Shown here: in pieces, positions 3,001 to 64,000 of the stretch
Layout: each line of letters opens with the position of its first letter
Position numbering within the stretch: the stretch's first letter is position 1
Source: Gibbula magus
Lineage: Eukaryota; Mollusca; Gastropoda; Trochida; Trochidae
Length of the DNA: 64,000 nucleotides
Reading direction: 5' to 3'
NCBI GenBank assembly: GCA_936450465.1
Contig: OW388293.1
Coordinates: forward strand, 30,695,860-30,759,859
Translations under genes and position numbers: made by a program
Notes under the pieces: model-generated
The model's database searches: none
Told to the model about the DNA's origin: nothing
The model's input: the letters and a program-made list of their open reading frames with translations, nothing else

Positions 3001-6000
3001 GAATCGTGACTAAACATGTCAATGATAGTATGTTCCTGTTGCTAGTGGATGTTGGTGGGTTCTTCCCTCCCATCAAGGCCAGCACGGAGAGTTACGTGGA
3101 GAAGTGCAGTGCGGAGATCAAGACGTGGCTGCGGTCACTCCGAGCAGACGGCAAGATGGTCTTCCTTCTGACCAGTTCCTTCTCTGACTTCTCATCTTGT
3201 CTCCTCAACACCATCCTCGGGTCAGTGCTGCAACCCATTTTAACAGTTTAGCCATCCACATTTTTTCTCTCTTTCTTATCCCGACCCCAGACCATCATAA
3301 TTTTCTTTCCGACCAAATTATGAAACACTTTTTTCTTCCCTGATTCAGGGCAGAATGGGGAACGATTTAGCAGCGTCTGTCTGTATATCCTGTTCTTTGT
3401 TAATGTGATATCTCATGAACCGTAGCACCCAATGTTTTATAATTAATCCATTTCTAAAGCGCTAAACTCCACGCCAGGGCCATACTCATAACGCATACGG
3501 TAACCCAATGTTTTCAAATTTGGTGATTGTTTACCAGTATATTGACAATCGAACACCCGTCAACGTGTGTAAATAGGTATCTTTAGTTTAAATCTGTAAG
3601 CCTGTGTTCCAGGCCGGACTGGGAGAGCTATTTTGACATCAGTATATTATAACCCTGTGTTCCAGACCGGACTGGGAGAGCTATTTTGACATCAGTATAT
3701 TATAACCCTGTGTTCCAGACCGGACTGGGAGAGCTATTTTGACATCAGTATATTATAACCCTGTGTTCCAGGCCGGACTGGGAGAGCTATTTTGACATCA
3801 GTATATTATAACCCTGTGTTCCAGACCGGACTGGGAGAGCTATTTTGACATCAGTATATTATAACCCTGTGTTCCAGACCTGACTGAGAGAGCTATTTTG
3901 ACATCAGTATATTATAAGCCTGTGTTCCAGACCTGACTGAGAGAGCTATTTTGACATCAGTATATTATAACCTTGTGTTCCAGACCAGACTGGGAGAGCT
4001 ATTTTGACATCAGTATATTATAACCCTGTGTTCCAGGCCGGACTGGGAGAGCTATTTTGACATCAGTATATTATAACCCTGTGTTCCAGACCGGACTGAG
4101 AGAGCTATTTTGACATCAGTATATTATAACCCTGTGTTCCAGACCTGACTGGGAGAGCTATTTTGACATCAGTATATTATAACCCTGTGTTCCAGGCCGG
4201 ACTGGGAGAGCTATTTTGACATCAGTATATTATAACCCTGTGTTCCAGACCAGACTGGGAGAGCTATTTTGACATCAGTATATTATAACCCTGTGTTCCA
4301 GGCCGGACTGGGAGAGCTATTTTGACATCAGTATATTATAACCCTGTGTTCCAGACCGGACTGAGAGAGCTATTTTGACATCAGTATATTATAACCCTGT
4401 GTTCCAGACCTGACTGAGAGAGCTATTTTGACATCAGTATATTATAACCCTGTGTTCCAGACCTGACTGAGAGAGCTATTTTGACATCAGTATATTATAA
4501 GCCTGTGTTCCAGGCCGGACTGGGAGAGCTATTTTGACATCAGTATATTATAACCCTGTGTTCCAGACCAGACTGGGAGAGCTATTTTGACATCAGTATA
4601 TTATAACCCTGTGTTCCAGGCCGGACTGGGAGAGCTATTTTGACATCAGTATATTATAACCCTGTGTTCCAGACCGGACTGGGAGAGCTATTTTGACATC
4701 AGTATATTATAACCCTGTGTTCCAGGCCGGACTGGGAGAGCTATTTTGACATCAGTATATTATAACCCTGTGTTCCAGACCGGACTGGGAGAGCTATTTT
4801 GACATCAGTATATTATAACCCTGTGTTCCAGACCGGACTGGGAGAGCTATTTTGACATCAGTATATTATAACCCTGTGTTCCAGGCCGGACTGGGAGAGC
4901 TATTTTGACATCAGTATATTATAACCCTGTGTTCCAGGCCCGACTGGGAGAGCTATTTTGACATCAGTATATTATAACCCTGTGTTCCAGACCGGACTGG
5001 GAGAGCTATTTTGACATCAGTATATTATAACCCTGTGTTCCAGACCGGACTGGGAGAGCTATTTTGACATCAGTATATTATAACCCTGTGTTCCAGACCG
5101 GACTGGGAGAGCTATTTTGACATCAGTATATTATAACCCTGTGTTCCAGGCCGGACTGGGAGAGCTATTTTGACATCAGTATATTATAACCCTGTGTTCC
5201 AGACCGGACTGGGAGAGCTATTTTGACATCAGTATATTATAACCCTGTGTTCCAGGCCGGACTGGGAGAGCTATTTTGACATCAGTATATTATAACCCTG
5301 TGTTCCAGGCCGGACTGGGAGAGCTATTTTGACATCAGTATATTATAACCCTGTGTTCCAGACCGGACTGGGAGAGCTATTTTGACATCAGTATATTATA
5401 ACCCTGTGTTCCAGGCCGGACTGGGAGAGCTATTTTGACATCAGTATATTATAACCCTGTGTTCCAGGCCGGACTGGGAGAGCTATTTTGACATCAGTAT
5501 ATTATAACCCTGTGTTCCAGACCGGACTGGGAGAGCTATTTTGACATCAGTATATTATAACCCTGTGTTCCAGACCGGACTGGGAGAGCTATTTTGACAT
5601 CAGTATATTATAACCCTGTGTTCCAGACCGGACTGGGAGAGCTATTTTGACATCAGTATATTATAACCCTGTGTTCCAGACCGGACTGGGAGAGCTATTT
5701 TGACATCAGTATATTATAACCCTGTGTTCCAGACCGGACTGGGAGAGCTATTTTGACATCAGTATATTATAACCCTGTGTTCCAGACCGGACTGGGAGAG
5801 CTATTTTGACATCAGTATATTATAAGCCTGTGTTCCAGACCGGACTGGGAGAGCTATTTTGACATCAGTATATTATAAGCCTGTGTTCCAGGCCGGACTG
5901 GGAGAGCTATTTTGACATCAGTATATTATAACCCTGTGTTCCAGACCGGACTGGGAGAGCTATTTTGACATCAGTATATTATAACCCTGTGTTCCAGACC

Positions 6001-9000
6001 GGACTGGGAGAGCTATTTTGACATCAGTATATTATAACCCTGTGTTCCAGACCGGACTGGGAGAGCTATTTTGACATCAGTATATTATAACCCTGTGTTC
6101 CAGACCGGACTGGGAGAGCTATTTTGACATCAGTATATTATAACCCTGTGTTCCAGACCGGACTGGGAGAGCTATTTTGACATCAGTATATTATAACCCT
6201 GTGTTCCAGACCGGACTGGGAGAGCTATTTTGACATCAGTATATTATAAGCCTGTGTTCCAGACCGGACTGGGAGAGCTATTTTGACATCAGTATATTAT
6301 AACCCTGTGTTCCAGGCCGGACTGGGAGAGCTATTTTGACATCAGTATATTATAACCCTGTGTTCCAGACCAGACTGGGAGAGCTATTTTGACATCAGTA
6401 TATTATAACCCTGTGTTCCAGACCTGACTGGGAGAGCTATTTTGACATCAGTATATTATAACCCTGTGTTCCAGACCGGACTGGGAGAGCTATTTTGACA
6501 TCAGTATATTATAACCCTGTGTTCCAGACCGGACTGGGAGAGCTATTTTGACATCAGTATATTATAACCCTGTGTTCCAGACCGGACTGGGAGAGCTATT
6601 TTGACATCAGTATATTATAACCCTGTGTTCCAGACCGGACTGGGAGAGCTATTTTGACATCAGTATATTATAACCCTGTGTTCCAGACCGGACTGGGAGA
6701 GCTATTTTGACATCAGTATATTATAACCCTGTGTTCCAGACCGGACTGGGAGAGCTATTTTGACATCAGTATATTATAACCCTGTGTTCCAGGCCGGACT
6801 GGGAGAGCTATTTTGACATCAGTATATTATAACCCTGTGTTCCAGGCCGGACTGGGAGAGCTATTTTGACATCAGTATATTATAAGCCTGTGTTCCAGGC
6901 CGGACTGGGAGAGCTATTTTGACATCAGTATATTATAACCCTGTGTTCCAGGCCGGACTGGGAGAGCTATTTTGACATCAGTATATTATAACCCTGTGTT
7001 CCAGACCGGACTGGGAGAGCTATTTTGACATCAGTATATTATAACCCTGTGTTCCAGACCGGACTGGGAGAGCTATTTTGACATCAGTATATTATAACCC
7101 TGTGTTCCAGACCGGACTGGGAGAGCTATTTTGACATCAGTATATTATAACCCTGTGTTCCAGACCGGACTGGGAGAGCTATTTTGACATCAGTATATTA
7201 TAACCCTGTGTTCCAGACCGGACTGGGAGAGCTATTTTGACATCAGTATATTATAACCCTGTGTTCCAGACCGGACTGGGAGAGCTATTTTGACATCAGT
7301 ATATTCTACGCCAGGAAGCCTCTCTTCTTCACGGACAGTCACGCATTTCTTAGAATCGGTGAGTGCAGTGAAACAATGATAACGTGTAGATAGATCTAAA
7401 ATGTCATCATTATTTATTCATTCTCAGTTCCTTAAAGAATATGCAACCCAAAGCAAATTAAGACACTAGAAGGGTAACTTTTCCCTGCCTTTGCTTCCGA
7501 CCAGGTACCCACGTGTACCACTAGGTGAACAGAGACACATTTTGTGCTGACTCGTGTCAGTTTCAGAATATTTTTATTTAGATATTATTAGTAAACTGCA
7601 ATATAAAATATTAATTGATACATAATTATGTGTCACAATAGATCTTCTAGATACTGATAAATCAGGGAAGCTTTATCTGTTGATTTGGCTATGAGAATCT
7701 TTCATAACAAAAGAATGCATGTTCTGGTGCTTGCATTTTTGTCATCAACTCAATGTAACATATTTAATTTGCTGTTGACAACTTTCTGGTTAAGGCTAAT
7801 TTTTGTGTAATTTTGAATAGCAATAACTTCTCTATTCATTCGACGGACTCAATATGTATAAAATCGAGTTATAGAATAAGAGTCAATTTATCAATTTAAT
7901 ATTCTTTGTATTGAACTGGAACGTATGCTGCAATACACAGCACCTACATTTGTTTTCATAGAAAACCACTCGGTAAAGGAACCAGCACTGAAACTAGAGA
8001 AAGGAGGTTTCTATTACCGTGGCAACTACAAAGAACTGATGGGGTTCATCTCGGAACAAACAGGCAAGGAGACCCCAAAGGTAAGAAGTATTAAAATCGT
8101 GTGAATTAATGTCAGTGATGAAGAAGGCAACCAAACATGGAACCTTAGATTATTTTTTGGTCGCAGTCGTAAAAAACGATTTTTGATATGACAAAAATGA
8201 GGATGTTATCAGTGTTGAAAACCTCAAACATTACAGTGAATATGGCCTGTAGTCAGGTTATGATAGTACATCTGGAGCCAGTAACCTCTGTGGGAAGAGA
8301 ACGAGGGGGCTAGGTATTCTTGTTAATGCGATATCCTTATGAACTGTTGCATAGAATGTCTTCAAATTTGGCAGCAGAATCTATTGTAAGATAATATAGA
8401 CGCCTGTCTACTTTGATGACCTTGACGTTGTTGTCAGTTTAGACATGTTATTGATGACCTTCATGACTTCCTTTTTGTATATTTCTCCATCTTCCTTGTC
8501 ACAGATTTTATGTTTCTCTCTGACAGGTTGTATATTTCGGAGACAACATCTGCGCTGACTGCTATCCGTCCAAGATGTACGCTGAGTGGGACACGGTACT
8601 ACTTCTTGAGGAAATGGACGCGGAAGGATATGTGTGTGAGGACGGCACAGTGGAGGCGCAGCAGGACGAACCAGCCGCCAAGAAGTCGAAACGGGGAATT
8701 GAGGTAGTATATATGATGGCCAAAATAGATGTCGATTTATTTTCTTTGTCCATACATAAATAGATAAATATATTTTCCCCAAATTAAAAATTATTCAGAC
8801 CAACAAATAACATATACCACAAACCCTGACCGACCTGTACATCTTCAAAATTGTAGTTAAAACATGTCATGATCAAGGCACCAGAAATATTTGAGTTGTG
8901 CCCCTTGACTAACATTCCCAAGCAGGTAAAAATGTAGGATTTGAATCAGATTTAAAACATGTATGTCCTTAGTTTTGGGCCAGTGCAAAAAGTTTCATCC

Positions 9001-10421
9001 AAATTTTCTCTACATTGCAAATGCTATTAAATTATGTTAATTATTCTATATTTACCGGTGAAACATAACCAGGGTCATATTGATCATGTTTGCCAAAAAA
9101 TGACATGTCAAACGATTCTAATGGATAAAATAGGAAATTGAAAAATTGAAAATGAAATTATGACGACACCTGAAAGTATGTCATACAACTTACAAAATCG
9201 ACAACTGGGGCAGGATACTGCAATGGTAAGTTTTGGGGTTAAAATTGACTAATCAATCTTCCTCTACAATCCTGGGAGGGGAGATAACTCCTTTTTAACT
9301 CTGTATCTTCTCTCTACAGCACAGTTCGCTGGTGACCCCCGAGGAGATTGAATACCTTGTGTCAGATGTGTGGGGACCCTTCCTCTACCACCCCATCGAC
9401 GGGGAGGGGGACGGTAAGAAGGAAATGAACACATTCTGGGGTGCCGTCATCAGTCGCTATAGTGACATCACCGTCCCCAGTCTCGAGTACCTTGCAGGTG
9501 TGTGCAGTTTTTTATGTATTGAATATATGTATTTATTTTTAGCTCATCATCTGAAAGGCCCGATGGGTTTATGGCATGACATGGCGTCCGTCTGTCCGTA
9601 AACGTTTTGCTTTTTCAACTTCTTCTCCAGAACCAATGACTCCACATAGCTGAAATTTTATGTACAGACTCCTTGGCCAATGGGGATTCTAAATTGTAGA
9701 TTTCGTGAACCCGTGACCCCAAATGGGGTCACAGGGGTCACATCCTTAAAAACCTATTTTCATCTTCTTCTCCAGTTCCAAAAGGTTTTGAGAGCTGAAA
9801 AGTTGTGTGCAGACTCCTTGACCAATGGGGATTCTAAATTGTAGATTTTGTGACCCGGTCACCCCAATCTAGGTCACGGGTCATGACCCAAAAACCTATT
9901 TTCATCTTTATCTCAAGTATGTAAAGCTCTAGAATGGTCAAATGTTGTGTAGAGACTCTTTGGTCAAAGGTGATTCTTAATTGTAGGATTGGTGACCCTG
10001 TGAGTGGGTCACAGGGGTCATGATCTAAAAACCTATTTTTTGCTTGTCAACAATGTATTACTTGAGATAGATATTCAACCTTAGATAATAAATCAATGAA
10101 ATCCTGATGAGCTACAGAGCCCATGGCCCTATTTTTACTGAATCTCAAGATTTGAATGCCCAAAAAAAAGGTCTTATACAGGCCAATGAGGATTATAAAT
10201 ATAAAAGACAATGAGACAATGAGAATGAATTTAATCATAGAATAATATCACAAAAGTTGAACAGCAAATTGTATTTGTTTTATGAATAATTATTCATATT
10301 TATATTTATATATCTTTGTATATTTTCAGGTGTTCCGCTTGACCACAAGTTTCCAAGTTTCGGAGCTTGTAGCGGTAACACTAAAGGATTTCACCCAGGG
10401 AAACCTGCCTCGCTTTTATGA
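1..10421 (+). CDS. NT5DC1: NT5DC1-like 5'-nucleotidase domain protein, 3' part
   Basis: Nine exons join in phase with GT-AG introns: 1-40, 1366-1448, 2220-2319, 3046-3220, 7270-7358, 7962-8080, 8527-8703, 9320-9497 and 10330-10421 (stop TGA at 10419). They give 350 residues; the family is about 450 long, so the start, including the HAD nucleophile motif DxDxT, lies left of the window. Seen: ENYFDTPG (exon 2), VFLLTSS in exon 4 (HAD motif II region), VVYFGDNICAD in exon 7 (HAD motif IV, acidic Mg2+ ligands), and a conserved end VPLDHKFPSFG. These match the order I know from animal NT5DC1, a cytosolic HAD-family protein whose substrate is not established. Exon 1-40 is the least certain: it is short, but its phase and donor GTAAGT fit. 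Intron 4 (3221-7269) is nearly filled by a 53-bp array copied from its own 3' end. Candidate poly(A) signals are AATAAA at 10933 (inside a MITE) and 13643. Confidence 0.88.
429..503. repeat. Short foldback element in NT5DC1 intron 1
   Basis: Two imperfect inverted arms of about 33 bp (left from TTTCCCGAGTTATATCA, right ending TTGATATAACGAGGGA) face each other across a spacer of only a few bases. A transcript would fold into one long hairpin. No coding content. Confidence 0.6.
835..886. other. Cluster of CRE-like TGACGT(CA) palindromes
   Basis: TGACGT occurs at 835, and the full palindrome TGACGTCA at 855 and 879, in intron 1 of NT5DC1. TGACGTCA is the classic ATF/CREB site, but the same word recurs in repeat elements near 51.2 and 52.2-52.6 kb, so repeat origin is as likely as an enhancer. 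Confidence 0.35.
1241..1265. repeat. (TA)n microsatellite
   Basis: An uninterrupted TA dinucleotide run in intron 1 of NT5DC1, about 100 bases before the exon 2 acceptor. Confidence 0.85.
2454..2622. repeat. Foldback element, ~75-bp arms, NT5DC1 intron 3
   Basis: The left arm begins ATGCCAGTCTCCATCACTGG and the right arm ends CCATTGATGGAGACTGGCAC. Pairing continues inwards through CTATGCTAGTGT against ATACTAGCACAGG, with several mismatches. The element has no coding capacity and lies 130 bases after the exon 3 donor. It looks like a MITE or foldback transposon remnant; no clear target duplication was found. Confidence 0.65.
3601..7304 (+). repeat. 53-bp tandem array of the NT5DC1 exon 5 splice acceptor
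   Basis: The unit is CCTGTGTTCCAG, then (G/A)CCGGACTGGGAGAGCTA, then TTTTGACATCAGTATATTATAA. The second and third parts are the first 34 bases of exon 5 (7270 on) followed by TTATAA and the start of the next unit. The first acceptor AG ends at 3612 and the real one at 7269. The 3657 bases between them are exactly 69 x 53, so there is no net length change in 69 units. Variable sites are few: the first exon base (G/A), the third base of the Pro codon (CCG/CCT/CCA/CCC), TGG/TGA, and the base pair after TATAA. The first 20 or so copies are the most varied. In the frame of exon 4 every decoy reads through ISIL and stops at TAA; only the last copy continues (ISIFYARKP). Confidence 0.97.
9538..10139 (+). 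repeat. Dispersed repeat with internal modules (GCTCATC family)
   Basis: Starts TTAGCTCATCATCTGAAAGG and ends GATGAGCTACAGAGCCCATG, within the last NT5DC1 intron. Inside, a module of about 120-190 bp (TTCTTCTCCAG, GACTCCTTGGCCAATGGGG, GTGACCCCAAATGGGGTCAC) occurs three times with decay. An inverted full-length relative lies at 31848-32590 and a fragment at 60245-60460, so this is a mobile or mobilised family. No ORF of note. Confidence 0.75.
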
Positions 10422-14994: not shown

Positions 14995-15646
14995 AATTTC
15001 AAACAACAATATCCCAACAACAATTTCAAACAACAATACCGCTAACGACAGTTTCAAACAATACCTCGGCCCCTAAAGACAATTTCAAACAACAATATAC
15101 CCTATAACGACAATTTCAAACAACAATACCCCTAACGACAATTTCAAACAACAATACCCCTAACGACAATTTCAAACAACAACACCCCTAACGACAATTT
15201 CAAACAACAATATACCCTATAACGACAATTTCAAACAACAATACCCCTAACGACAATTTCAAACAACAATACCCCTAACGACAATTTCAAACAACAATAT
15301 ACCCTATAACGACAATTTCAAACAACAATATACCCTATAACGACAATTTCAAACAACAATACCCCTAACGACAATTTCAAACAACAATATACCCTATAAC
15401 AACAATTTCAAACAACAATATACCCTATAACGACAATTTCAAACAACAATATACCCTATAACGACAATTTCAAACAACAATATCCCTAACGACAATTTCA
15501 AACAACAATATACCCTATAACGACAATTTCAAACAACAATACCCCTAACGACAATTTCAAACAACAATATACCCTATAACGACAATTTCAAACAACAATA
15601 TACCCTATAACGACAATTTCAAACAACAATATACCTAACGACAATT
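14995..15646. repeat. 28/31-bp minisatellite
   Basis: About 22 units share the core AATTTCAAACAACAAT. Each is completed either by ACCCCTAACGAC (28 bp) or by ATACCCTATAACGAC (31 bp), so two unit lengths alternate irregularly. The strand is almost free of G. No coding potential. Confidence 0.9.
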
Positions 15647-16170
15647 ACACGACTTCTTCCCAAGGGCTATGGTTAAATGTTGAAGTTGATCATAAAGGTT
15701 TGTTCATGAACCTCCAAACACACAATTGAATGTCTGTCATGACAAAATTAGGGGAATAAAGGTAATTATGTCTCTTTCAGTGGCTTATGCAGACATATGA
15801 TTACCTGCAGCATCGTGCCTATTAAGAAATGACTTTAGCGTAACGGGTAACCTAGCTCTACCGTACTATTAACAGCTGTTAAATGCCCATTGCAGTTAGT
15901 CAGGGAGGGTGTGGTGAGTGGGGAACGGGTATGGGGCCTGAGGGGTGGAAGGAGTATAACATTTCATGAATTTGTGGTATTGAGGGACTGGTGGTCCCTG
16001 GAGTGACTGACAAGCCTCTAATAGAGACAAAACAATGAGGTCACACTTTAAAATATACCTGTTACTTCTGCCTAAGAGTGGAAATGTCTGTTATAAAACC
16101 TGGACATTAAAGAATAAGATACACATTTCATCGATTCAAAGGAGAACTGTTTTGTTATGATACTGAGGAT

Positions 16171-16974
16171 AGGTTTACCGTATCACAACTGCATGCAGTG
16201 ACTGCTCAATACTCAGATTGTCACATTGGTCTTACCTTATCACACCTGCATGCAGTGACTGCTCAATACTCAGATTGTCTCATTGGTCTTACCTTATCAC
16301 ACCTGCATGCAGTGACTGCTCAATACTCATATTGTCACATTGGTCTTACCTTATCACACCTGCATGCAGTGACTGCTCAATACTCAGATTGTCACATTGG
16401 TCTTACCTTATCACACCTGCATGCAGTGACTGCTCAATACTCAGATTGTCACATTGGTCTTACCTTATCACACCTGCATGCAGTGACTGCTCAATACTCA
16501 GATTGTCACATTGGTCTTACCTTATCACACCTGCATGCAGTGACTGCTCAATACTCAGATTGTCTCATTGGTCTTACCTTATCACAACTGCATGCAGTGA
16601 CTGCTCAATACTCAGATTGTCACATTGGTCTTACCTTATCACACCTGCATGCAGTGACTGCTCAATACTCAGATTGTCACATTGGTCTTACCTTATCACA
16701 CCTGCATGCAGTGACTGCTCAATACTCAGATTGTCTCATTGGTCTTACCTTATCACACCTGCATGCAGTGACTGCTCAATACTCATATTGTCACATTGGT
16801 CTTACCTTATCACACCTGCATGCAGTGACTGCTCAATACTCAGATTGTCACATTGGTCTTACCTTATCACACCTGCATGCAGTGACTGCTCAATACTCAG
16901 ATTGTCACATTGGTCTTACCTTATCACACCTGCATGCAGTGACTGCGCAATACTCAGATTGTCACATTGGTCTT
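16171..16974. repeat. 57-bp minisatellite, 14 copies
   Basis: Each unit opens with the palindrome CTGCATGCAG and continues TGACTGCTCAATACTCAGAT. First and last CTGCATG are at 16189 and 16930, exactly 13 x 57 bases apart. Because 57 is a multiple of three, long ORFs stay open in two frames across the array (16198-17070 and 16218-17021). They are repeat artefacts: no start context, no homology, variants not synonymous-biased. Confidence 0.93.
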
Positions 16975-17204
16975 CGAGCAATTGTCAAATTGAAACCCCT
17001 TTTCAAAGAATCCGAATGTGACCATATGTCATTTCATCTAACCTTTAACCTCTACCAGGTACCCAATTGAACAGCTGGATGGACAGACACGTTTTGATTG
17101 AAGTATTGCGTATATTTGCAGAACGGTAAATAATTGATCCCTAAAGCACTTATTATAATGAAGGTTTTTAACATGATTTGAGAGCAAATTGATGAGAGTA
17201 TGTG

Positions 17205-17430: not shown

Positions 17431-17652
17431 AATTGCATGTTTGATGCCGATTCATTGCATTTATATTATTAACAACATTAATATTCAATTCCGAAAATCT
17501 TGCAAATTGCATGTTTGGTGCCGATTCATTGCATTTATATTATTAACAACATTAATATTCAATTCCGAAAATCTTGCAAATTGCATGTTTGGTGCCGATT
17601 CATTGATTTATATTATCAACAACATTAATATTCAATTCCGAAAATCTTGCAA
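17431..17652. repeat. Three 74-bp tandem copies
   Basis: AATTGCATGTTTGRTGCCGA starts at 17431, 17505 and 17579. The copies are nearly identical, apart from a 1-3 base loss in the third. The ORF at 17441-17662 is only this repeat read through. Confidence 0.9.
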
Positions 17653-18410
17653 AGAAACTTAAAGTGGTCATTGTTGCGAAGAGGCTTTTCTGATCGATTT
17701 CAATTGTAAGTGCAGTGTCACCTGCAAACTCTGCAAGGAGAGATATCCCATCTGTATGTCTGTTTCATTTGGTGGTGATATGTTCCTTGTATAGCAAATT
17801 GTGGTATAGTACTTCAAAGCACTTCCTATGAAATACCTAACTCAACTGACATTAGTACCACCCACAGTTGACATAACACTTGCAAGTTTCACTGTGATGA
17901 TTGTAGAATCACTCTTTTCACCGACTTTTCCTGCATTAATTGTACTCCCACAAAGGTGATAGTAACAATCATCGCTTCTTGTATATTTAATAATAATTAA
18001 AATTTAATAAATGTTAGCTTTAGATACATCGGTATGTAATATATATTTATTGAAAATTGATCATGTGTTTTTGTCATGAGAATGTTTTGACTGAATGTAA
18101 TTTGATGAATTCACCGTTGTAATTTTGGAGTGACATTTACATATAAGCGTTCAGCTTATTTGCCAGTCCATTTCAATGATAAATAAAATATGTTTAAACC
18201 GATCTTAAAAGTTTCGTTAAACCTAAATCACACCTAATCTGAGCTCCAGTGTAAGCTTACTATAGTATAACTCCGTCCTGTGGTCACACATCCATCACCT
18301 TCAACGTTCTGTCAAGAAAACAAAAGATTACTATCTCCCCGCGACAAGCCGTGACAGGGTTTGTATACTACACTTGCATTGTATCACGGGGCTTAGTCCT
18401 CGTCACACAA

Positions 18411-18895
18411 TTTAATTCCTCGTCTCACAGTTTTATTTATTGTCTCACAGTTTTATTCATTGTCTCACAGTTTTATTCATTTTCTCACAGTTTTATTCAT
18501 TGTCTCACAGTTTTATTTATTGTCTCACAGTTTTATCTATTTTTTTCACAGATTTTATGCATTGTCTCAGTTTTATTCATTGTCTCACAGTTTTATTTAT
18601 TGTCTCACAGTTTTATTCATTGTCTCACAGTTTTATCTATTTTTTCACAGATTTTATGCACTGTCTCACAGTTTTATTCATTGTCTCACAGTTTTATTTA
18701 TTGTCTCACAGTTTTATTCATTGTCTCAGTTTTATTCATTGTCTCACAGTTTTATCTATTTTTTTCACAGATTTTATGCATTGTCTCACAGTTTTATTTA
18801 TTGTCTCACAGTTTTATTCATTATCTCACAGTTTTATTCATTGTCTCACAGTTTTATCTATTTTTTTCACAGATTGTATTCATTGTCTCACAGAT
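18411..18895. repeat. 20-bp minisatellite (TTTTATTCATTGTCTCACAG)
   Basis: About 24 units, interrupted four times by a longer variant with TTTTATCTATTTTTTTCACAG followed by ATTTTATGCATTG. The ORFs across it are repeat artefacts. Each unit is a T-rich tract ending in CACAG, so it resembles a splice acceptor on the + strand. Confidence 0.9.
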
Positions 18896-45179: not shown

Positions 45180-47604
45180 AATTTATCAGGCTTTTACCTG
45201 ACAATTATCGTGTTGAACCTTTGTTTTCAATTGGCACCGTCAGCATCACTGTCGCTAACGACGCTAACGACCATCAACATGGTCGCCTCGCTTACATACG
45301 TCATCAGCTGATGTCATTGGACGGGCATAGCGACGTAAGTACTTATCTCTCCAGCTTTCAGAGGAGTGCAGGAGGGAAGATTACGGAAAAAAGGATAAAG
45401 CAAGGAAACGGAGAAGAAAACGGGGAAGAAAGGGAGGAATCCGCCGCCGTGTGAGAGCCCAAAATTTCGTCCGCCACTTCCAACACTACTTCTGTCAAAC
45501 GTAAGATCTTTAAGAAACAAACTTCCTGAATTAGAGGCAAGTGTTTCGTATTTACATGAATACAGAAAGAGCTGTGTATTGTGCTTCACAGAAACATGGC
45601 TCAATGACAGTATTGAAAACCAATCGCTATCACTAGCGGGATTTGGTGAGCCCATTCGATCAGATAGAGATGTGGATGCCTCGGGAAAACATCATGGAGG
45701 TGGTTTGTGTATGTATGTAAATACAAACTGGTGTAAACAGTATGTTATAAGGGAATCAGTATGTACACCGAACATTGAACTGATTTCAGTGTCTTTAAGA
45801 CCTCATTATTTCCCGCGAGATTTCGGTCAATTATTCCTTGTTCTGGTGTACATTCCGCCCAGCGCCGATACAATTTAAGCTTCATCTGAATTCCTTTTCA
45901 AACATGTGCAAAACCTCGAGAATATATCCCTGGATGCCCCTAAATTTGTGTTAGGTGACTTTAACAAATGCTCTATGAAGTCTACTCTGCCTCACTATGA
46001 ACAATATGTGAGTTAACTGTCTAACTAGGAGGAATAAAACCCTGGATCTGTCTTATGGCAACGTCAAGGGAGCCTACAAAGCAATTGACAAACCCCCACT
46101 TAGAACTTCGGAACCATAATACAGTGCATCTCCTTCCGTGCTACAAACAGAACATTAAGACATGAAAGCCTGAAGTAAAGACTATCAAGTCCTGTGACTC
46201 AGATTCCATTCAACAATTACAAGGCTGTTTTGAATGCACAGACTGGGATACACTGATGGCCGATAGCACCGATCCTGATCAGCTGACGGACACTATTACA
46301 AGTTATATAAACTTTTGTGTAGATTCTATAATACCAAGTAAAACCATAAATATTTTCCCAAACAATAAGCCGTGGGTATCAAAAGAAATGAAAAGCCTTC
46401 TTAATAGGAAGAAAATAGCGTATTGTAAGGGGGATTTATCAGAAGTTAAAAATGTCCAGAAAGATATTTCCTTACAAATAAAGAAGTGTAAAGAAGATTA
46501 TAGGAACAAAGTAGAGAAGGAATTTTACTGCGGTAACTCTTGGAAAATGTGGAATAGTTTGAAGGCCATGATTTGAAATGATAAGAAGAGAGAAGGAGTC
46601 GCTACATCTGACCCTAAGTCCTTTGCTGAAGACCTTATTTCCTTTTATGCTAGATTTGATACCAGGGATTTTTCAGATGAATTAAAAAATGAACTTGATT
46701 CTTCAATTTTCATAAATACCGCAAATGACCTCAAACTTAGTGTGGAGAATGTAAAATCATGCTTTACTAAAATTAATATACGTAAAGCTTCTGGACCTGA
46801 TAATTTAAAAGGCATTGTGCTCAAGTCATGTGCTGACCAACTCGCCCCATTTTTTTGCAAGCTGTACTCTCTTGATGCTCATGAAATACCGAAGATATGA
46901 AAAGATTCCACAGTGATTCCAGTTCCTAAACGATCTAATTTAGACCAAAAGAACTAAATGATTATAGACCTGTTTCCCTCACGTCAGTGGCCATGAAATG
47001 TTTTGAGAGGTTATTGCTTCCCGTTTTATTACAGAGTATGAATGATATTTTGGATCCATTGCAATTTGGCTATCATGCAAAGCGTGGCGTGGAAGATGTC
47101 ACTCTAACTGTGTTGAAGAAATTGTATAATCATCTTGAAACTCCAAAATCTTATGCCCGAATCTTATTTGTTGATTTCTCATCAGCGTTTAATACAATCC
47201 AGCCCCACCTTCTTGTCCGTAAACTCATAAACTTGAGTGTCAGTCCCTCTATCATAAAATGGATAAGTAATTTTCTGACCAACAGGACACAGTCTGTTCG
47301 TGTCAATGATTGCAAGTCTTCAACTGTTACTATCAACACTGGTGCTCCTCAGGGATGCGTGTTGTCACCTTTGTTATTTATTACATGTACAAATGACTGT
47401 ATGGCACAAGATCCATCCTGTTCAATTGTGAAGTTCGCGGATGACGCGGCACTCATTGCTCTATTGAATAATAATTCTAATGAAGATGGATATCGATCAG
47501 ATATTTCTAATTTTACAGATTGGTGCCAGATAAATTTTCTTCAAATAAATGTTAAGAAAACAAAGGAAAAAATATTTGATTTTAGAACTAGAGTTAATCC
47601 ATGC
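45180..47604 (+). mobile_element. Non-LTR retrotransposon (Rex1/CR1-like), 5' and RT part, decayed
   Basis: Translated pieces in changing frames line up with the ORF2 of Rex1/CR1-type LINEs. A basic leader (ARKRRRKRGRKGG) lies near 45390. The endonuclease start (LLLSNVRSLRNKLPELE, CFTETWLND) is at about 45480-45620, and VLGDFN at about 45950. A linker with NNKPWVSKEMKSL is at about 46356. The reverse transcriptase runs 46930-47600 with DYRPVSLTS, LFVDFSSAFNTIQPHLL, GAPQGCVLSPLLF and the catalytic FADDAAL. Stops and frame changes (for instance near 45876, 46010-46250, 46574 and 46950) show it is dead. Family placement is from recalled motif layout. It breaks off at GAGTTAATCCAT and resumes at about 50510. 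Confidence 0.88.
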
Positions 47605-47795
47605 TGATGACGTCACTCTATTGTGTTAACAGTGGATTATTCTTAAGAATCTACTGAGCATTGACTAATCCAGTCAGGAGGGGTGTCAGGTTTTGACATT
47701 TTCGTAATGGCACACCAAGTAATTTGTTCAAGAATGAGGTATTTTGTCTTAGTGAATCTGTTTACAATCTTAAAATATCTCAATATTTTTGTAAT

Positions 47796-59238: not shown

Positions 59239-62200
59239 ATGGCGAGCTCTAACAAGAGTGACACAATTTTGACTTCCTCCATTTCTAAAAAGGGAGAGTA
59301 CGTGAGAAAGCAATCGGTCTTTCGGGATTTTGTGACAGGTAATTGTTGATCGTCCGCCATCTAAAATATGTTCTTGTCGTGTTTACATTTCTCTAAATTC
59401 TTGAGGATGCCAGCGCTCTTTAGAAAACTGGCAACAGGTACTGTAGAATCTAGAGCTTGACCAAACCGATTCGGGTCACTGACAGACACTCTATGCCTCA
59501 ATAGCTCATTGTTTATATAGCTGGACAAATATAGATTGTATTGATACTAGTCTACTAAGCAAATACATCATGACTTGCGGTTTTAGAATATTTTTTTTAT
59601 TGTGTAAAGAATGCGTTTACTGCTATTCTAGCTAGGCCTCCACGGGTGTAGAAGGTTGCCGCTAGTCTACTGTACTTGCAGTTTTATGAAAGAATGTTCT
59701 ATGCGTTTATCACTACATGATCGAGTGTATGCAGCCTATTTTCATTTTTTTTTAAATGTATTTATTTAAAAATAGATATAATTCAAGTTTCAATTATGCT
59801 CTAATAACTTATAATATTTTAATTGTTTGTGTGTACTAATACATTTAAGCTAAAAAAAAGTAAACAGTGATTAGTGTAAAAAGAGATATATTAATTAATT
59901 TTAATTCTTTACTGTTACAATTTATAATTATTTCAAATGTTTCAACAGCTCCCTATGTAAATTGTGAATTTTATGGGGTCTTTTTCTAATCCGTTTCATC
60001 TATTTAGACTAATTTGATGTGATTTGTTTAAATATATAAAAACAATCCTGAGCACTATTTCATTGCAAATTCATTTCTGTATATTAATTGCATTGATGTT
60101 CAGAATAAATATCCTTATTAAAGCCTTTGTTGCCATGGAAACTGCATGTAGGAACACCATTAGAATATCAAGTAAATGATACCTTGTATACAAATATCAG
60201 GTTTTCATTATTTTTCACAAAAGTTGGATACTTTCTATATTGAATATTGATATACTTCTTCTTCTCCAGAACAAAAAGATCTAGAAGGCTGTAATATTGT
60301 GTGCAGACTCTTTAGCCAATGTGGATTCTAAATTGTAGATTTGGTGAACCTGATGCGCCAAATAAGGGCTTCACAGGCCATGACCTTAAAATCTATTTCA
60401 GTCTTCATCATTAAACAATATTAAAACCCCAATGAGCTACTTGGCTCTATTTTTTTATTAACAAAATGTTTACAGCATCCCATTGTTCATACCAAATGAA
60501 ATCGCCTCAAACCCCCCATCTCATTAAACTTTAGACCATATAATCACGATGCTCCATGCTACATACCATACCATACATATGTTATATAATAGTCTATTTG
60601 TTATGTACAATTATCCACGAGCAATGCATACTCTACCGCCTGACCAAAATCTAAAATGATAGCTATCCTGATTCAGGGCCTCCTCATAAATATAGAGGCC
60701 CCTTAACCATTATAGTTATCATTTTAGTTTTTTCATGAGTTAGTCAGGCAGTAACATGCAGGGATATAAGGTTATTTGAAACAGATACGTCTTAAGTCAA
60801 GCTTGAAAGACGCAATTGTCGAGCAATGCATACTCTACTGCCTGACCAAAATCTAAAATAATAGCTATCCTGATTCAGGGCCTCCTCACAAATATAGAGG
60901 CCCCGTAACCATTATAGTTATCATTTTAGTTTTTTCATGAGTTAGTCAGGCAGTAACATGCAGGGATATAAGGTTATTTGAAACAGATACGTCTTAAGTC
61001 AAGCTTGAAAGACGCAATTGTCGAGCAATGCATACTCTACTGCCTGACCAAAATCTAAAATGATAGCTATCCTGATTCAGGGCCTCCTCATAAATATAGA
61101 GGCCCCGTAACCATTATAGTTATCATTTTAGTTTTTTCATGAGTTAGTCAGGCAGTAACATGCAGGGATATAAGGATATTTGAAACAGATACGTCTTAAG
61201 TCAAGATTGAAAGACGCAATTGTCTGAGGTGAATGGGAAGGGTGTTCCTCTCTGTTGGTGTATGTGAGCAGCAGACCAAAGGTGACAAAGATAACAGCTT
61301 TACATTTGTTCACTTTTTTACATCTAGATGGCATGTATTTTGAATGATATTGATATTTTGCTAAATTTCAGCGGATGGATCGAGCGGTTTTAAGGCAGAG
61401 GCTAACCGCTATCACCTGTATGTGTCGCTGGCATGTCCCTGGGCCCACAGAGCGCTGATTGTTCGTAAACTGAAAGGGTTGGAGAGTGTCATCAGCTATA
61501 CAGTTGTCGATTGGATACTTGACGAGAGAGGATGGAAATTCACGGATGAGGTAACAACAATTATGATGATGATGATGTTTTGAAATTTGAAAATAAGATA
61601 ACAAGGACATTGTGAGATATCTACAGTTCATGAATAAATATTGAAATTTCTGGGATTTCTAAATATATGATATACTTTAGCTTAGATTTTATTATCCCCT
61701 GCCGTATATTTGCTGTGTCCGTCTGTCCGACATACGAAATGGAATAATAACTGAAGGACTATTCACTGAATTCTTTTCATATTTTACATATGGGTTCATC
61801 ATAGGGAGAGTAATCTTCCCACAAAATTTTGTGACCTTGACCTTCAATTCAAGGTCACAACAAGACTTCGTCTTTTTATCCTTGTTAGCGGGATATCTCA
61901 AGAACAATCAATGGATTCTCTTCATATCTTACACATAACTTCCCCTTCCGACATGTTAATGTGTATGTTAAGCTTGTCAGCGGGATATCTCAAGAACTGG
62001 AATTTCATCATATCTTCGACCAAGAGTTCTTTTAGGGAAGATTCAGGGCCCAGTTGATTTTGATGGTCTTGGCATTATTTTTCAATTTTGAAGTATTAAT
62101 TTGCGGTTATTTGGATTACAGACTAGGTTTAATAGTGACTCTAGCAAGTCTTTGACCTTAAGACAACAGAATGGTTTTGAAAATCAGTTCATATAAGTTT

Positions 62201-64000
62201 GTAGTAAAGAAATTATACTGAAGGAAAAACACCCCTTCACATTAGACCACAAACATTTTGAATATTTTGACTACATTTTGATAGCATTCTGAATATTTTG
62301 ACTACATTCTAGCAATATTTTGAATATTCTAACAATATTCTGAATATTTTGACTACATTCTAGCAATATTTTGAATATTCTTACAATATTTTGAATATTT
62401 TGACTACATTCTAACAATATTTTGAATATTCTGACTGCATTCTATCAGCATTCTGAATACTCTGACAATATTCTGAATATTCTAACTACAATCAAACATT
62501 GTAACAGTGTTGTGTATATTCTGACTACACTCTAACAACATTCTGAATAATCCAACTGCATTTTCACAATATTTTGACTTCATTATAACAACCCAAAAAA
62601 AAGAAAAAAAGGTTTGGCTGTAGCTTTGACCTTGGTGTAAATGAGCCTTTAGTCGTAAGATGCATGAATACAAACTTTTTTTCAGAAACCAAAATGTGAA
62701 GCGGATACAGTGACTGGCAGCAACTTTCTCCGAGAAGTCTATGTGAAAGCAGATCCTGGTAGGTGCAGAGACTAGTTAATCCAAAATATGAAAATAGATA
62801 TTTTAATAACATGATTGGGGGATGTTAAAAGTCATTTAATCTTTCTTCTCTTAATGTTGGTTTTATGTTTAGATTCATATTGAATTCTGATTCCCGAGGG
62901 AACAAATTTCTGCAGAACATTTATCATACCTCTCTTCCCACAGAAGTCATATCTTCCAACCTAATCTGAGTTAAAATACCGTAATTTCTTGAATAATAGC
63001 CTGCCTTGAATAATAGCCTGCCTTGAACAATCGCCTGCCTTGAATAATAGCCTGCCTTGAACAATCGCCTGCCTTGAATAATAGCCTGCCTTGAACAATC
63101 GCCTGCCTTGAACAATTGCCTGCCTTGAACAATCGCCTGCCTTGAACAATCGCCTGCCTTGAACAATCGCCTGCCTTGAATAATTGCCAGCTCTAAGCCC
63201 TCTTTGATATAATTAAACCCCTGTCTTGAATAATCGCCGGGTTAAATTTAAATGTAAAAAGCTAATGACTATAATTCCAGCATAAGCATATTTATGCGAA
63301 GTTTAACCTCATGCCATGCATTCCGTTTACAATATTCATAATTTAAAACATACTGTGATGATGTTTTTGTGAGGTTTTTTTAAATTGCATATATATATAT
63401 ATATATTGTGTCTGAAAAAAATAATTGCCTGCCTTGAATAATCGCCAGGTCAAATGGGTGTTACAATTTAATAATCAGCGGGCGATTATTCAAGGATTTA
63501 TGGTACGTTGTTATCCCTGGTTGACAATATTTCTAGTGGTGAAAATTGCAGCATGGATTGTGTCAAAAACAAAATTGTGTTATGTTTTTGTTGTGACATG
63601 ACTGAGTTTTGTTTCGTCAGATATATGTGCTCATCAAAAGGGTAATGGAACTCGATCCAGTATCCCCACCGTTCGTATGTGGAAACGACAGAATGCTCGG
63701 TCAGTGATTGCACAACAACTTTGAATGCAACAAGTTATAATCTCAATCGATTGTACAGCTTTGTTGTAATAGAGGTTAGTAAGGAAGATATGACTTGAGT
63801 AAGAGAAGGAGAGATTGAGTTTGTGCTGATGCAGTTTAAAATGATCAGCAAAAATGCATAAGTGACAGAAGAGGCATAAAATCTCAATAACCTCCCAATC
63901 TGACCCAAACAAAATGTTTTCTTTAAATTGCCTTTGTAGGATGAAATGGGAATATAAATTCTTGAAATAATATTCTTATAATAGTGATAATTTTCTGCTA
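59239..64000 (+). CDS. Glutathionyl-hydroquinone reductase (omega-GST-like), 5' part
   Basis: Three coding exons join in phase: 59239-59338 (ATG), 61372-61550 and 62686-62758, giving 117 residues and one extra base. The rest lies past the right edge; nothing in 62759-64000 reads as the next exon. Seen: SVFRDFVTADGS (27-38), RYHLYVSLACPWAHR (46-60), RKLKGLESVI, then DTVTGSNFLREVYVKADPG. CPWAHR holds the catalytic Cys55 and is the signature of S-glutathionyl-hydroquinone reductases (YqjG/ECM4 group), which use glutathione to remove the glutathionyl group from GS-hydroquinones in the cytosol. Family length is about 320-370. The ATG was chosen because an in-frame upstream extension (to 59128) lacks conserved residues and ATG at 59239 gives a normal N-terminus. 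The end coordinate is the window edge, not a stop. Confidence 0.9.
60245..60460 (+). repeat. Dispersed repeat (GCTCATC family), truncated
   Basis: CTTCTTCTTCTCCAGAAC, GACTCTTTAGCCAATGTGG and the end AATGAGCTACTTGGCTCTAT match one module plus the right terminus of the 9538-10139 element. Intron 1 of the reductase gene. Confidence 0.65.
60619..61224. repeat. Three 202-bp tandem copies, each with a long hairpin
   Basis: GAGCAATGCATACTCTACYG starts at 60619, 60821 and 61023, exactly 202 bases apart, nearly identical. In each unit TACTGCCTGACC faces AGTCAGGCAGTA, CTAAAATGATAGCTAT faces ATAGTTATCATTTTAG, and GGGCCTC faces GAGGCCC, so the unit centre is one long imperfect hairpin. Intron 1 of the reductase gene, ending 148 bases before exon 2. 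Confidence 0.93.
61690..62010. repeat. Dispersed repeat with GCGGGATATCTCAAGAAC
   Basis: GTCCGTCTGTCCGACATACG, CTTGACCTTCAATTCAAGGTCA and two copies of AGCGGGATATCTCAAGAAC (about 61887 and 61978). Weak relatives lie in NT5DC1 introns near 3400 (GTGATATCTCATGAACCGT) and 8325. Intron 2 of the reductase gene. Confidence 0.5.
62255..62580. repeat. Degenerate AATATTYTGAATATT tandem repeat
   Basis: Blocks such as TTTTGAATATTTTGACTACA and TTCTAACAATATTCTGAA recur about 12 times with a period near 26-27 bases and much decay. It ends about 100 bases before exon 3 of the reductase gene. Confidence 0.75.
62977..63505. mobile_element. MITE with an internal minisatellite copied from its own terminus
   Basis: Ends TACCGTAATTTCTTGAATAA and TTATTCAAGGATTTATGGTA are inverted copies. 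Inside, from about 62990 to 63185, a 20-bp unit (TTGAAYAATMGCCTGCC) is repeated about ten times; the unit is the subterminal sequence of the element itself. A (TA)n run lies at 63390-63406 and more TIR-like words at 63425-63500. The reverse ORFs across it are artefacts. Intron 3 of the reductase gene. Confidence 0.8.
63506..64000. other. Intron 3 of the reductase gene, nothing recognised
   Basis: No exon of the expected type (a thioredoxin-fold end with a VPVLWD-like block) was found before the window ends. ORFs on the - strand have no support. Confidence 0.5.

Follow-up and report, generated by a model that had tools for sequence, protein, structure and literature searches.

How is the start of an exon found when the preceding intron carries, one after another, dozens of copies of that same start? 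The question is raised by a gene of the gastropod Gibbula magus lying in the 64,000-nucleotide stretch of contig OW388293.1 analysed here (assembly GCA_936450465.1, forward-strand positions 30,695,860 to 30,759,859; hereafter the window). On the plus strand, nine exons, of which the window edge truncates the first (1-40, 1366-1448, 2220-2319, 3046-3220, 7270-7358, 7962-8080, 8527-8703, 9320-9497 and 10330-10421), yield when joined an uninterrupted reading frame of 350 codons, closed by TGA; the last pair of coordinates covers the coding part up to the TGA, its end being derived, and excludes the exon's 3' end. The seven internal exons measure 83-178 nt and the eight introns 446-4049 nt. The longest intron holds the array. 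It follows the exon ending at 3220 (donor gtcagt) and precedes an exon of 89 nt (7270-7358; peptide G|PDWESYFDISIFYARKPLFFTDSHAFLRI; donor gtgagt). The name "exon 5" given to the latter in an earlier, sequence-only reading holds for its rank among the exons visible in the window, the first of which is truncated.

The gene product scores 117.9 bits against the Pfam family 5_nucleotid (PF05761; curated cut-off 28.5), which places it in that family, and the best of 23 protein matches is an NT5DC1-like protein of Haliotis rufescens (75% identity). Together with the open frame, these matches bear out the identification of the gene as NT5DC1 and the intron, acceptor and exon anatomy read earlier from the letters. 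Among the first 18 of the 23 matches, 16 carry species names, all of gastropods, and two carry none. The 26 sequences matched among solved structures belong to more distant 5'-nucleotidases, with a best E of 2.6e-09. In an alignment of the query with seven of the 23 matches, residues W136, Y139, F140 and D141, which are encoded in the duplicated part of exon 7270-7358, are invariant in all eight rows; this part is gapless throughout, an amphioxus row having three additional residues further on. With a frame open for 350 codons over nine exons and with these invariant residues, the gene looks functional. A diverged tandem repeat (145 bp x 2.7, 9612-9998) is present in the last visible intron (9498-10329).

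Tandem Repeats Finder (TRF) reported a single array of 70.0 copies of a 53-bp unit at 3597-7305 on the plus strand, with 98% matches and 0% indels. Counting the units directly gave 70, every spacing being exactly 53, which confirmed that 69 decoys precede the real exon start. With 70 exact periods, the array itself calls for no chance model. In each unit, 17 bases of intron that run up to the acceptor CAG (their last bases are CCCTGTGTTCCAG) are joined to the initial 36 bases of the exon, 7270-7305 (ACCGGACTGGGAGAGCTATTTTGACATCAGTATATT), rather than to 34 as initially read; exon and array differ at position 7306 (C and A, respectively). Copy 1 (3597-3648), delimited by the unit count and by comparison of the flanks, adjoins the native intron; it begins with TAAGCC and has G at columns 5 and 18. 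Copy 70 (7253-7305) carries the sole productive acceptor (AG at 7268-7269). Its boundary, 7269|7270, was placed by exon joining in the open NT5DC1 frame, in agreement with the proposal that only the last copy is productive. All 70 units contain CCAG. Outside the flank base of copy 1, just five of the 53 columns vary (5, 7, 18, 21 and 27), defining eleven unit types with a mean pairwise identity of 97.9%. The description of the units as exact copies is right for 34 of the 69 decoys, which equal copy 70 over 52 bases (35/70 when copy 70 itself is counted); the others differ. Copies 65-70 do not differ from one another over these 52 bases.

Branch sites follow the consensus yTnAy. The branch point suggested earlier, TTATAAC, does not fit it, and the only fit within the unit is TTGAC, 29 nt upstream of the AG and inside the exon-derived part of the preceding copy. 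Copies 2-70 thus share the same candidate branch site, while copy 1 depends on the native intron.

The ends of the array bear on its origin. The native left flank reads CTG TAAGCC, the native right flank TTC TACGCC and the unit-unit join TTA TAACCC; besides copy 1, six copies have TAAGCC, with G at column 5. The two native flanks have TA in common at the break, then one mismatch, then GCC, from which we infer a founder duplication with TA common to its ends. It would have copied 53 bp once, between an intronic breakpoint (...CTG|TAAGCC) and an exonic one (...ATT|CTACGCC), with the 3' splice site caught in between by chance; ordinary slippage or unequal exchange would then have raised the duplicate to 70 copies. 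Variant units are commoner towards the 5' end: 24 of the first 35 differ from the consensus, against 11 of the last 35 (a bias reached in 16 of 10000 shuffles). Neighbouring units also tend to be alike (28 pairs against 20.8 expected; 150 of 10000 shuffles). We read this distribution as that of an array which grows and homogenises locally. There was no sign of higher-order repeats among the unit types, three-unit words recurring 5 times against 4.07 expected (3906 of 10000 shuffles). The near uniformity of the right half, which makes it hard to assemble, could suggest that the copy number or the entire array is an assembly product. This is highly improbable in the face of the ordered variants and of the in-frame joining of the exons on either side; for these two reasons an array is likely real, although we are less sure of the exact number 70.

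The window holds 14 minisatellite-type loci, hand-chosen from 27 TRF rows after overlaps were merged and 2-bp repeats, 4-bp repeats and one 25-base row were dropped. They make up 12.4% of the window, nearly half of this being the 53-bp array, which is the only one of the 14 to touch an NT5DC1 exon (the annotation consists of the NT5DC1 exons alone). A 57-bp unit is repeated 14 times at 16175-16974 (97% matches, TRF); its length is a multiple of three and it is open in two plus-strand frames, in ORFs of 319 aa (16111-17070) and 282 aa (16173-17021). Further minisatellite arrays lie at 14995-15646, 17431-17653, 18402-18893, 60618-61224, 62253-62498 and 62988-63188. The Pfam scan, which covered seven of the 16 listed ORFs, identified a reverse transcriptase ORF at 46939-47607 (RVT_1, 104 bits); it gave no match for the ORFs at 45399-45878 and 46166-46576, immediately upstream.

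The sequence-only reading knew of no described gene with so many exact acceptor copies. That view is not supported: the "mirages" of amphioxus (PMC3087553) and the human ABCA7 repeat (PMC5954066) are comparable arrays already on record. Mirages are reported in the amphioxus genes BflGb6, BflGb9, Adh3 and TnC (PMC3087553; PMC3902484). Adh3 data and RT-PCR suggest that these genes undergo regular splicing without interference; the repeats are unstable in length, with somatic instability at Adh3 (PMC3087553). The second report makes the same statement for Adh and TnC, and it also describes repeats over splice sites of PGBD5 (PMC3902484). The Gibbula array resembles mirages in being a minisatellite-like tandem duplication over an intron-exon boundary, with many units that carry splice signals (PMC3087553), and it shows the three anatomical features of a mirage, namely an intragenic minisatellite-like repeat, a unit spanning the intron-exon boundary and AG/GT signals within the units. 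It differs in its mollusc host, in its 70 copies as against six and three in two BflGb6 haplotypes, and in its 53-bp unit, the units of BflGb6 measuring 150-160 bp and those of Adh3 10-72 bp (PMC3087553). Here, the open frame suggests that regular splicing is undisturbed.

In ABCA7, a VNTR of about 12 to 427 units lies in intron 18, its first two bases being the donor GT of exon 18. Retention of one unit through the second-copy donor occurs at about 2%, independently of array length, and produces a premature stop; longer VNTRs are accompanied by more exon 19 skipping and lower expression (PMC5954066). Both loci thus have tens to hundreds of copies of a splice site, and in both the use of a second copy results in a premature stop; in contrast to the present array, that of ABCA7 duplicates a donor rather than an acceptor, has a 25-bp unit within the intron, is polymorphic and is associated with disease (PMC5954066). 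Variable internal tandem repeats at exon-intron boundaries are also known from human segmental-duplication genes. Like the Gibbula array they are boundary minisatellites, and they change gene structure and splicing; unlike it, they average four units of 30 bp and alter coding exons or form new introns (PMC2812944). A limited literature search naming molluscs found no molluscan counterpart. By analogy with these systems, the array looks like a known kind of array rather than a new mechanism; among the acceptor arrays compared here, it is remarkable for its copy number.

We put the probability at roughly 70% that the array is a passive minisatellite of the mirage type, spliced out with the intron, in which copy 70 is mainly used, the nearest decoys may leak and the repeat probably has no function. 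Under this interpretation, the 69 extra copies would simply have been turned into intron, lengthening it from 392 nt (its size once they are removed) to 4049 nt, and the exon ending at 3220 would be spliced mainly to copy 70. The exact period and the homogeneity of the units indicate a young array, in favour of such a reading. The anatomy, the open frame, the premature stops and the sizes of exons and introns are seen directly in the sequence; the founder event, the splicing outcome and the lack of function are all inferred.

Use of any of the 69 decoys would lead to a premature stop; it comes after 13 codons, as TAA, in 63 of them, much as first described (13-14 codons), whereas in the remaining six it is a TGA after three codons. 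The early TGA results from a TGG>TGA change that is not present in copy 70. Its confinement to decoys is what would be expected if decoys are noncoding, a weak indication given that only six of 70 units carry it. Skipping exon 7270-7358 shifts the frame and leads to a stop after 50 codons, and keeping the intron leads to one after ten. Coding use of the array was rejected, as the consensus meets stops in all three plus frames. Recursive splicing was discarded as well, there being no ratchet site (ACC or GCC, rather than GT, comes after the acceptor). Micro-exons formed with donors inside the unit are unlikely, since seven of the gene's donors score 4.19 to 7.90 and the best of the three GTs per unit 1.37; the eighth donor of the gene, after 8703, scores only 0.13, below that within-unit GT.

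Acceptor strength was scored with a position weight matrix (PWM) built from the gene's seven other acceptors, a small sample. The score of copy 70, shared by the consensus decoys, is 3.58; leave-one-out scoring ranks it fourth among the gene's eight acceptors, and copy 70 has the fewest pyrimidines of the eight (8 of 12). A decoy with G at +1 reaches 3.83 and copy 1 only 1.12. Acceptor-like AGs are common in the window: outside the array, 722 of 6253 AGs score at least 3.58 (counted on both strands and with the gene's own other acceptors), and one in the same intron, before 3460, scores 4.24.

That decoys score as well as real acceptors speaks against a purely passive array, and could be taken to favour the idea that decoys are used frequently, that the products are removed by nonsense-mediated decay (NMD) and that copy number thereby sets NT5DC1 output. 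The preservation of CCAG in all 69 decoys and the premature stop that each entails fit this length-dependent rheostat too. We nevertheless consider it very unlikely. From copy k the exon would measure 89+53*(70-k) nt, that is, 142, 195, 248 and 301 nt for copies 69 to 66 and 3746 nt for copy 1; from copy 66 backwards it is at least 301 nt, so that any effect should saturate after a few copies. Moreover, use of the neighbouring duplicate donor in ABCA7 (about 2%) is reported to be unaffected by array length (PMC5954066), and mirages are reported without disturbance of splicing (PMC3087553).

Where exons are small and introns long, splice sites are expected to be chosen by exon definition. The exon and intron sizes of this gene conform to this pattern and uphold the earlier suggestion that exon definition probably explains why most decoys would be passed over. 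In the passive reading, acceptor and following donor would be fixed as a pair, and ordinary exon reach of 7358 would take in copy 70 and just the last few copies before it; since distant decoys are beyond that reach, decoy use should barely respond to copies gained at the end away from this donor, the main argument against the rheostat. What exon definition cannot do is separate copy 70 (89 nt) from copy 69 (142 nt), both lengths being within the exon size range of this gene, and this counts against the reading. Our guess is that copy 70 would prevail over copies 69-66 through its nearness to the donor and the 53 unique exon bases at 7306-7358. A low-level leak from copies 66-69 into NMD-type transcripts is predicted, and copies 65-69, being identical to the real acceptor over 52 bases, are credible leak sites.

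The ABCA7 precedent, in which array length alters splicing and expression, may mean that "passive" is wrong here by analogy. Length could act without any decoy being used, if the tenfold longer intron or factors bound to the units weakened inclusion of the 89-nt exon, with skipping and a frameshift as the outcome. This possibility overlaps in part with a passive minisatellite. It draws on the rise of exon 19 skipping with VNTR length in ABCA7 (PMC5954066), on the growth of the present intron to 4049 nt from 392 and on the stop that exon skipping would bring; yet in ABCA7 the affected exon lies downstream of an array of donors, and what holds there may not hold for an acceptor array. We regard it as unlikely.

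A near-palindrome, TTCCAGACCGGACTGGGA, is made up of the acceptor and the start of the exon; it lies at 7264-7281 and at the corresponding place in the other copies. Neighbouring acceptors might therefore pair through this near self-complementary stretch and mask one another, the last copy being freer beside unique exon. The predicted self-duplex of TTCCAGACCGGACTGGGA has -22.9 kcal/mol, a value matched by 10 of 1000 shuffled 18-mers and by 5 of the window's 3757, and in four of four folding settings CCAG was predicted to be unpaired more often in copy 70 than in the median decoy (0.12 against 0.02 with a window of 200 and a span of 150). In a model array of 14 consensus copies, the last-to-middle ratio was 5.67, which one of 100 shuffled units reached. 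Several results contradict this scheme. Copy 70 ranks only 7th, 10th, 5th and 8th of 70 in the four settings, below variant copies, chiefly those with 27G>A; the gain requires the native right flank (one of 40 shuffled flanks reaches it); a threefold gain persists when the stem is broken; and the predicted fold of four units in a row is no more stable than that of shuffled sequence (z 0.52). The case for self-masking RNA made by these models is thus weak, and mutual masking appears exceedingly doubtful. Neither a tRNA nor an Rfam family reaching its gathering score turned up anywhere in the window. That copy number measurably sets NT5DC1 output, be it through leakage at the last decoys or through masking by the near-palindromic acceptor, is a decidedly unlikely prospect.

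As a mechanism, the array is probably neutral. It suggests that minisatellites spanning splice boundaries extend beyond lancelets and humans, and it confronts gene predictors with many equal acceptors at one locus. With 34 decoys identical to the real site over 52 bases, the locus is a ready-made test, at equal site strength, of how far an acceptor can lie from its donor; and if copy number does act, the array would amount to a natural titration of like acceptors within a single intron.
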